This document shows positions 11,636-14,414 of a DNA stretch of 64,000 nucleotides, piece by piece. The translations under genes were made by a program, and so were the position numbers. The first letter of the stretch is position 1. Every line of letters begins with the position of its first letter. This stretch comes from Longimicrobiales bacterium (GTDB lineage: Bacteria; Gemmatimonadota; Gemmatimonadetes; Longimicrobiales; Gaopeijiaceae), in assembly GCA_951828585.1 (NCBI GenBank), contig OX639991.1, positions 3,380,576 through 3,444,575 on the forward strand. Reading direction: 5' to 3'. Under the pieces are notes generated by a model, which was given only the letters and a program-made list of their open reading frames with translations, had not been told where the DNA came from and searched no databases.

Positions 11636-12793
11636 CTATATCGTATCCGTCGGCGCCGTGCCCGCGCAAACCGGCCTGAGCAGCCCCACATTCGCCGAAA
11701 ACGCCTCCTCCGACCCCGTCAGCAGCCCCGTCCCCACCAGGAACCGCAGGTCGCGCCGCAGCGTCCGCCGCGACAGTCCCCCGTAGCGCTGGGCGGTCTC
11801 GGCGTCGAGAAGCGCCACCTCGTCGATGTCCAACGACCCCTCCACCGGCATCGCCAGCATGAGTTCGGTGCGGCGCTCCAGGACCGAGCGCTTGCGGAGA
11901 TCGAGGTCCGCCAGGCGGGCCCGCGCGAAGTTGCGCCACGCGACGGCGAAGTTGGCCTCGCCCACGGCGCCGTGGAGACGCTCGAGGCCGTCGCGCAGCC
12001 CCTCCACCGCATATGCGATGAACGAGGTCAGCGAGCGGTCGCGCGACGATTGTTCGAGGTGGCGGAAGTACTCGCGCCGGGTCTCGTTGTAGAAGTCGGT
12101 GAGGAGGTGCGAGGCGATTGCGGGGGTGCCGGCGGCGGCGAGGATGTACCCTTCGAGCAGCCTCGCGGTGCGCCCGTTGCCGTCGCCGAAGGGGCGGATC
12201 CAGAGGACGTACACGTGCGTGACCAGGGCGCGGACGACCGCCTGGCCGAGCTCTCCGTCCGGACCCGAGCGGGGGAACTCGCGGTCGAACCACTCGAAGA
12301 CGCCGCCGATCAGTTCGGGGACGTCGTCGGCGCGCGGGGCGGTGTAGCGTCCGGTCTGTGCTCCGGTGCGGAAGTGGCCGGGCTCGGCGTCCAGGCGGTC
12401 GCCCAGATCCGCGCCGATCAGGCCGTGGATGTGCAGTAGGAGGTCGGGGGTGACGGGGGTGGTGGTTCCGGCGGCGAGTTCGTTGAGGAGGGTGCGCGTG
12501 GCGGCCACCACGTTCATGACTTCGGTGGCCTGGGGGTCGCGGCTGGGGGGAAGGCGGCGGCCCGCCATGAGGGCGCCGACTTCGGTTTCGTCCAGGGGGC
12601 CGCCTTCGATGGCGGTGGTGGCCACGGCGGCCTTCGCCAGGGCCGCGTCCAGGAAGCGGCGGTGGTCGTCGGGGTGGACGGGCGTGGTGCGGATCGCCGA
12701 GACCAGGGCGTCGCACTGGCCGAGCTGGAAGCGCGTGCGGGGAGAGATCCCCCAGTGGCGCCTGTATTGTTGCCGGGTCGGCTGAGATTCCAC
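11636..12793 (-). CDS. Fic-family protein with C-terminal winged helix, catalytic His replaced
   Basis: 385 residues from the GTG at 12793; the frame is open further upstream, but that part is Pro/Arg-rich and unlike the family. Residues 59-64 (TTAIEG) fit the inhibitory motif [ST]xxxE[GN] of class II Fic proteins, placed N-terminal to the core. The Fic motif at about 200-211 reads [12 protein letters not shown], whereas the consensus begins HPF. The codon is CGC (His would be CAC), so the general-base histidine for AMP transfer is lost. The rest of the nucleotide-binding loop is intact. The C-terminus ([21 protein letters not shown]) looks like a winged helix. The protein may act as a DNA-binding regulator rather than an AMPylator. 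Confidence 0.88.
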
Positions 12794-12820: not shown

Positions 12821-12953
12821 TGACAGATTCCGTGACAGATTCAAGGTAGTATCTGTCCGCAGTCTTGTCACCGGGGGGGCTCCGTGTGTTGGGTGGAAGC
12901 CTGTAAACCGCGTCAGTGACAGATTCTGGGGAGTATCTGTCCGGGAATCTGTC
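12821..12953. promoter_or_regulatory. Operator-like array upstream of the Fic gene
   Basis: Two copies of the same inverted repeat, GACAGAT-N10-ATCTGTC, lie at 12834-12857 and 12918-12941, 84 bp apart. An extra half-site GACAGATTC is at 12822-12830 and its complement GAATCTGTC at 12945-12953. The array starts 28 bp upstream of the Fic start codon and lies before icd on the other strand. The symmetry suggests a dimeric regulator, possibly the Fic protein's own winged helix. Confidence 0.55.
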
Positions 12954-13178
12954 GGTGGCGGCCGGCAGGAGGTGGTTGGGGGGCTCTCGTATCGACTGGC
13001 CCGCGAAGACGGGGGGGCGGCCGGCGCCGGCGAGATTGGCGGTTGCGGATGGCGATGTGGCAAGTCGGTGGTTCAGCACATCGGCAGGCACGCGCCCGCC
13101 CCCCTTCTAATACGTCCCGCCACGCGTCAGATTAGCGGGTACCCCTCTGGTTCCCCCCACAAATCCGGAGCCCCGCGC
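12954..13178 (+). other. Rest of the Fic-icd divergent spacer
   Basis: This stretch holds no gene I can support. Open frames through it are upstream extensions of Fic and icd with no homology. The icd promoter is probably here but no clear -35/-10 pair was identified. Confidence 0.4.
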
Positions 13179-14414
13179 GTGTCCGCCTATCAGTACGCCT
13201 CCGTCCCCGCCGACGGCGAGAAGATCACCGGCGATACCGGCCAGCCCGTTGTCCCCGACCGGCCGATCGCCCCCTTCATCGAGGGAGACGGGATCGGTCC
13301 CGACATCTGGGCGGCCACGCGGCACGTGGTGGACGCGGCCGTGGCGAAGTCCTTCAACGGCGCGCGCGGGATCGCATGGATGGAGGTCTACGCGGGGGAG
13401 AAGGCCAGCGAGGTCGTGGGCGAGTGGCTGCCGCGCGAGACTCTCGACGCCCTGACCGAGTTCAAGGTTGCGATCAAGGGGCCGCTGACGACGCCGGTCG
13501 GGGGCGGCATCCGTTCGCTCAACGTGACGCTGCGGCAGGTTCTGGATCTGTATTCGTGCATCCGTCCGGTGCGGTGGATCCCCGGCGTGCCCTCGCCGGT
13601 GAAGGAGCCGCACAAGGTGGACATGGTCGTCTTCCGCGAGAACACCGAAGATGTCTACGCGGGGATCGAATGGGCGTCGGGCACCCCCGAGGCCGAGAAG
13701 GTGCGAGACTTCCTGATGGGCGAGATGGGCGCCTCGATCCGGGAGGCCAGCGGCATCGGGATCAAGCCGATCAGCCCGTTCGGCACGAAGCGCCACGTCG
13801 CGGCCGCCATCCGCCATGCGCTGGCGCGCGGGCGCGATTCGGTGACGCTGATGCACAAGGGCAATATCATGAAGTTCACCGAGGGGTCGTTCCGCGACTG
13901 GGGATATGAGGTCGCGGCCGAGCAGTTCGCCGATTCCACCGTGCCCGAGTCGCGCCTGTGGGAGGGCGAGGAGGCGAACGGCCGCGTGGTGATCAAGGAC
14001 CGGATCGCGGACTCGATGTTCCAGCAGGTGCTGCTGCGTCCCGCCGAGTACTCGGTGGTGGCCACGCCGAATCTGAACGGGGACTACCTCTCGGATGCCT
14101 GCGCGGCCCAGGTCGGCGGACTGGGAATGGCGCCTGGCGCCAATGTGGGCGACTCGGTGGCCCTCTTCGAGGCGACCCACGGAACCGCGCCCAAGTACGC
14201 GGGGCTGAACCGCGTGAACCCCGGGTCGCTGATCCTGTCCGCCGCGATGATGCTCGAGCATCTCGGCTGGGACGAGGCGGCCCGCGCGATCGACCGGGGG
14301 CTGGAGGGGGCGGTGGCGGCGGGACGAGTCACCTACGACCTGGAACGGCAGATGGAGGGCGCCACCCGGGTGTCCACCTTCGAGTTCGCGGAGACGATCG
14401 TCGAGCACATGTAG
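13179..14414 (+). CDS. icd: NADP-dependent isocitrate dehydrogenase
   Basis: The enzyme oxidises isocitrate to 2-oxoglutarate with NADP+. This 411-residue protein aligns end to end with the E. coli type: [43 protein letters not shown] (substrate serine in RSLN), [44 protein letters not shown] and [17 protein letters not shown]. The Lys-Tyr of APKYAG and the Tyr...Arg of VTYDLER are the NADP-specificity residues. The start is GTG 13179, where similarity begins; the frame is open further upstream. Confidence 0.96.

Follow-up and report, generated by a model that had tools for sequence, protein, structure and literature searches.

Our analysis makes it likely that a Fic-fold protein of an uncultured Longimicrobiales lineage has given up AMPylation and works as a transcription regulator of its own promoter and of an enlarged regulon, with a build like that of CccR and CbFic2. 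The gene lies in a 64,000-nucleotide stretch of contig OX639991.1, here called the window. The loss of the catalytic histidine is conserved among orthologues, the protein is under purifying selection, and palindromes stand at the gene's promoter. The same palindromes have expanded through the genomes that hold the gene, co-occur with it, and are themselves conserved. We infer from these observations that the protein binds the sites as a dimer, represses, and is without AMPylation activity.

A Fic-fold protein without the catalytic histidine

The features of the gene are as follows.

11636..12793, minus strand: Fic-fold protein without the catalytic His and with a C-terminal winged helix (385 aa, GTG start)
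11678..11827, minus strand: C-terminal winged helix, DeoR-like part, about residues 323-372 (predicted from the AlphaFold2 model and clade-wide conservation)
12161..12196, minus strand: FIC core motif, residues 200-211, with Arg200 where His is expected
12602..12619, minus strand: inhibitory-helix motif TTAIEG, residues 59-64, kept in this copy

The open reading frame starts with GTG at 12793, and the frame is open further 5' to a TTG at 13063. The protein matches PF02661 with an E value of 6e-13 (49.9 bits vs a curated cut-off of 24). Active Fic AMPylases carry the catalytic histidine of HPFx(D/E)GNGRxxR; here Arg200 takes its place, and its codon CGC (12194-12196) is a single transition away from CAC, exactly as the initial annotation had read it. 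The other motifs named there are present too: DGNGRTAR is whole, and TTAIEG provides the N-terminal (S/T)xxxE(G/N) inhibitory helix of a class II Fic protein.

The C-terminal winged helix of the same annotation is borne out by the AlphaFold2 model (18 sequences, pLDDT 82) together with the alignment. The model places helices at residues 323-326, 331-337 and 342-354 and strands at 358-361 and 364-367, and the alignment has a conserved LSxRTLRRDL in this region, as would be expected of a CccR-like Fic-HTH protein. A Pfam search of the C-terminus gave no HTH match even at E 1; the orthologue of one outgroup (L089) gave a sub-threshold HTH_DeoR match (E 0.027).

The 4.47-Mb genome holds 13 Fic/Doc genes by PF02661 search. 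Ten of the other twelve read HPF, one is Doc-type (HPFRDGNKR) and one is a weak match (RPFEEGNNR). The last (L042, G000:C1:1073422-1073595) lies in a different protein with a weak profile match and is another Fic-like motif without His, unrelated to that of the window protein.

Relation to known Fic proteins

In a search of the model against the PDB the top matches were all Fic proteins (4RGL, 8CIL, 7XUX, SoFic, FICD). The closest overall folds (Foldseek, VIA-align) are the Dde_2494 Fic protein (4RGL; Z 27.7, rmsd 6.4 over 310 residues) and SoFic (3EQX, 3ZCN), for which no regulator role is recorded in the structure-search results. CbFic2 of Coxiella burnetii (8CIL), the second best Foldseek match, is an AMPylase/deAMPylase acting on histone H3; like the window protein it is a class II Fic protein (N-terminal TSAIEG) with a DeoR-like C-terminal winged helix, which binds DNA, though no specific DNA sequence is known for it (PMC10628234). 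CccR of Yersinia pseudotuberculosis (7XUX), also a Foldseek match, has AMPylase activity (HPFGNGNGRTVR) and serves as a T6SS effector; it represses its own gene at a promoter palindrome (footprint AGATAATCAT-N26-ATGATAATCT), and its H192A mutant still represses, so that binding is independent of catalysis (PMC9755527). The window protein shares with CccR the order of a Fic domain and a C-terminal HTH and the palindrome in its own promoter. It differs in lacking the histidine and in a candidate site, TGACAGAT-N10-ATCTGTCA, that occurs at dozens of loci, and the two proteins are only about 18% identical.

Altered FIC motifs as such have precedents. Fic2 of C. fetus has a changed motif but keeps its histidine, which is required for toxicity (PMC5651007), and Doc clade D2 has His to Gln in the core motif (PMC4454073). 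No Fic regulator with a dead active site turned up in the literature that was searched, which is no proof of absence.

An old loss in a single clade

Orthologues with 42-88% identity were found in 17 of 22 genomes of the same genus, besides the window's own, and the same Arg gene adjoins icd in two other genera (L093, L096). Where the records carry names they are Gemmatimonadota/Longimicrobiales MAGs from uncultured bacteria. Wherever the contig extends far enough icd adjoins the orthologue in nearly all cases; it lies about 3 kb away in L060, and no icd was seen near the G011 gene, although the flank on the mltG side is similar.

In a maximum-likelihood tree the 20 orthologues form one clade (bootstrap 99). 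The residue at the histidine position is Arg in 17 of the 20, with Val, Ser and His once each, and so the arginine turned out to be conserved when the orthologues were aligned as the initial annotation had proposed. HPFxDGNGR and TTAIEG are intact in the outgroups L089, L090, L092 and L097, and L091 reads HPFGDGSGR. A single Arg clade beside outgroups with an intact histidine indicates that the change from H to R is old and no local accident. The arginine is found in independent assemblies, among them the complete chromosome OX638356.1, which led us to reject sequencing error; by the same series of orthologues a lone decayed allele among normal-His relatives, which would have overturned the earlier reading, is ruled out.

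The one histidine of the clade belongs to L016 (G012; HPFGDSNGRTAR). This copy is nested among the Arg forms, its DGN has become DSN and its inhibitory Glu has become Gly, for which reasons its histidine is probably a reversal.

Selection keeps the protein and not the enzyme site

Pairwise comparisons gave dN/dS values of 0.18-0.40 for the Arg clade and of 0.13-0.29 for the family of intact HPF paralogues (L039, L043-L055) that is present in many of the same genomes. The inhibitory motif has a mean column entropy of 1.45 bits in members of the Arg clade vs 0.06 in the paralogues, and the FIC motif one of 0.53 vs 0.09, whereas the HTH values are alike (0.56 vs 0.52). Purifying selection keeps the protein but not its enzyme site.

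The erosion is uneven. That the inhibitory motif is kept, as first annotated, holds only for the window's own sub-lineage; in most other members of the clade TTAIEG is eroded, and the Glu has repeatedly been lost or deleted. Such erosion is expected, since without activity there is nothing left to inhibit. Nearly all members retain GNGR. The active site is most damaged in L026, the G011 copy, which reads SPFRGGNRAAAA and has lost GNGR (GGNRAAAA).

These patterns bear on whether the Arg form retains some catalysis, or a nucleotide sensing that controls DNA binding. This would be compatible with a regulator and is conceivable, if on the doubtful side. GNGR and the acidic metal ligand are still there in most members, pseudoenzymes can have other chemistry (e.g. 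SelO), and CbFic2 is stimulated by DNA binding (PMC10628234); against this, the inhibitory Glu was lost several times, and the genome of L026, whose motif is gone, has the most sites. Nucleotide sensing is therefore possible in the lineage of the window, which has an entire DGNGRTAR. It is unlikely as the function of the whole clade, which is probably independent of GNGR given that the member with the most sites has lost it. The suggestion that the protein was kept as a nucleotide-sensing transcription regulator thus fares differently in its two halves: the operator network argues strongly for the regulator, while sensing is unproven.

Palindromes at the gene's own promoter

Between the gene and its divergent neighbour lie two mirror-image arrays of the palindrome.

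12822..12857, no strand assigned: proximal candidate operator array GACAGATtccgtGACAGATtcaaggtagtATCTGTC, 29-64 bp before the start codon
12918..12953, no strand assigned: distal candidate operator array GACAGATtctggggagtATCTGTCcgggaATCTGTC, mirror image of the proximal array, with the palindromes 84 bp apart
13128..14414, plus strand: icd (isocitrate dehydrogenase-type), sharing with the Fic gene the intergenic region that contains the palindromes

The half-site of both arrays is GACAGAT. As in CccR, then, a palindromic site stands in the gene's own promoter region. Related arrays occur upstream of the orthologues of the Arg clade, most clearly within the genus and more weakly in L070 and L071 and in the two further genera. 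A scan of the Fic-icd intergenic region for sigma-70 promoters and terminators found nothing.

Repeats of this type, in variant form, also stand at the corresponding upstream place in the intact paralogues and in some outgroups; in the HPF paralogue family these are GGACAT direct repeats about 12 bp apart before the start. The paralogue repeats suggest that Fic-wHTH proteins of these genomes are autoregulated in general, and the shared placement that autoregulation is probably older than the loss of the histidine.

Sites across the genomes

In a pattern search with up to 3 mismatches allowed, TGACAGAT-N10-ATCTGTCA occurs 29 times in the window's genome, and a reversed-pattern control 0 times. 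Genomes with the gene have 5-40 sites. The gene-less genomes G002, G009, G014 and G016, which have kept icd without the Fic gene and its palindromes, have 1, 1, 3 and 2. The difference between holders and gene-less genomes gives a Mann-Whitney p of 0.001 (1e-7 with the other genera included), with few gene-less genomes, three of which form one clade. A single-gene tree places this clade within the holders, though its support is modest (84). G017 looks like a counter-example: it lacks the gene but shows 9 matches, of which six have 3 mismatches. The icd region, however, is missing from its assembly (86% complete).

The outgroups G092 and G103, with an intact histidine, have one site each, at the gene's own promoter; a search for the site in its outgroup form (TGACATAT...) returned these two and, elsewhere, isolated matches. 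The site pattern of the intact paralogues occurs at 0-2 places per genome. The most sites, 40 with 22 of them perfect, are in G011. Rough gene calls put 17 of its 25 clusters no more than about 150 bp upstream of a gene start. Genes downstream include guaB, prs, transketolase, riboflavin synthase, ornithine carbamoyltransferase-type, pfkB, mutS-like and uvrD.

Could the palindromes be operators of some other, unlinked regulator, with the Fic gene one target among others and its protein doing something different? The binding of the protein to the sites is inferred, and the sites are spread over many unrelated genes, which would suit such a regulator. It is nevertheless unlikely: the sites co-occur with the Fic gene across the genus, the two outgroups that have the gene have the site at its own promoter only, autoregulation looks ancestral from the operator-like repeats of intact relatives, and the winged helix is what the clade conserves.

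Site geometry and individual loci

Sites in G000, G007 and G013 are paired 84 bp or 93-95 bp apart, and rarely 73 or 50-51 bp. Many loci are common to G000 and G007, and a few are shared with G011. At nine loci common to G000 and G007 the half-sites are conserved at 309 of 322 positions (96%) and the rest of the arrays at 472 of 698 (68%), a contrast somewhat inflated by the choice of loci with sites in both genomes. Outside the half-sites the spacers are 64% and the centres 79% identical.

Some sites lie within genes (a PIG-L/NEW3 protein, an FAD oxidase), and others separate convergent genes; neither placement fits a simple repressor well. In the PIG-L/NEW3 protein (L112 2051-2169, orthologues L206-L212) the site is read as codons and forms an in-frame loop with DRFxxESVTE-like residues, found only in genomes that hold the Fic gene. 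At the argS-pfkB junction (L118, L184, L156) the two genes overlap by TGATG in gene-less genomes, while G000, G007 and G011 have an array there. The second site at this junction overlaps the ATG of the PfkB-family kinase (GGACAGATAGTATGGAGATTCTGTCC in G000), so that binding would cover the translation start.

Since gene-less genomes lack the argS-pfkB and PIG-L/NEW3 segments, these loci leave room for a small palindromic element, mobile or REP-like, that was dispersed across the genomes and has no operator function, and the fixed geometry of the pairs (84 or 93-95 bp) would agree with a unit of this kind. We regard such an element as very unlikely to be the explanation, because spacers are dissimilar between loci (by eye), the half-sites are far better conserved at orthologous loci than the remainder (with some bias from the choice of loci), spacings differ by about one helical turn, and the sites of G011 are mostly single and largely intergenic. 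A decaying pseudogene or a lone damaged allele can be dismissed for practical purposes: the active-site residues do drift in the clade, but frames are long and open in 20 lineages, dN/dS is low, and position and promoter are conserved.

Three further observations concern single loci. A DUF1552-ankyrin-repeat gene pair is present in three copies in G000 (L116, L117), each with a site between the genes. In G011 a second perfect site lies 1.7 kb from the fic promoter site (L178 5887), its flank nearly copied as if the fic promoter region had been duplicated. Also in G011 a second dispersed, AT-rich palindrome of the TGTAAAC...GTTTACA type is often close to GACAGAT sites (L157, L159, L161, L164, L169, L170, L174) and is perhaps another regulator's operator.

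Discussion

The regulator that we favour would have arisen as follows. The ancestor would have been an ordinary class II Fic protein that attached to the promoter of its own gene by a C-terminal winged helix. The catalytic His would then have changed to Arg in one Longimicrobiales lineage, the constraints of the enzyme and of auto-inhibition would have relaxed, and the winged helix would have been retained. Dimers would bind TGACAGAT-N10-ATCTGTCA. The extra half-sites 12 bp outside, and the pairing of sites at distances of 84 or 93-95 bp, close to 8 or 9 helical turns, point to cooperative and possibly looped binding. Besides repressing its own promoter, the protein would act on about 10-40 other sites, many of which lie just upstream of housekeeping genes.

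We lean, with some reserve, towards a further step: that the target set grew from one own-promoter site to 10-40 helically phased, possibly looping sites, some of them conserved inside genes, while the active site decayed, so that in the most decayed lineage the fold and the winged helix alone are left and the target set is largest.

The candidate site is a concrete 26 bp and is directly testable. Fic proteins have mostly been studied as enzymes, and the Fic-HTH proteins found to bind DNA, CccR and CbFic2, are active. If our reading is true, the same architecture has here lost the enzyme and has kept and enlarged the regulator, which is a warning against labelling such proteins 'protein adenylyltransferase'. 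Since intermediates and intact outgroups survive, the order in which catalysis was lost, auto-inhibition was lost and the regulon grew can be tested.
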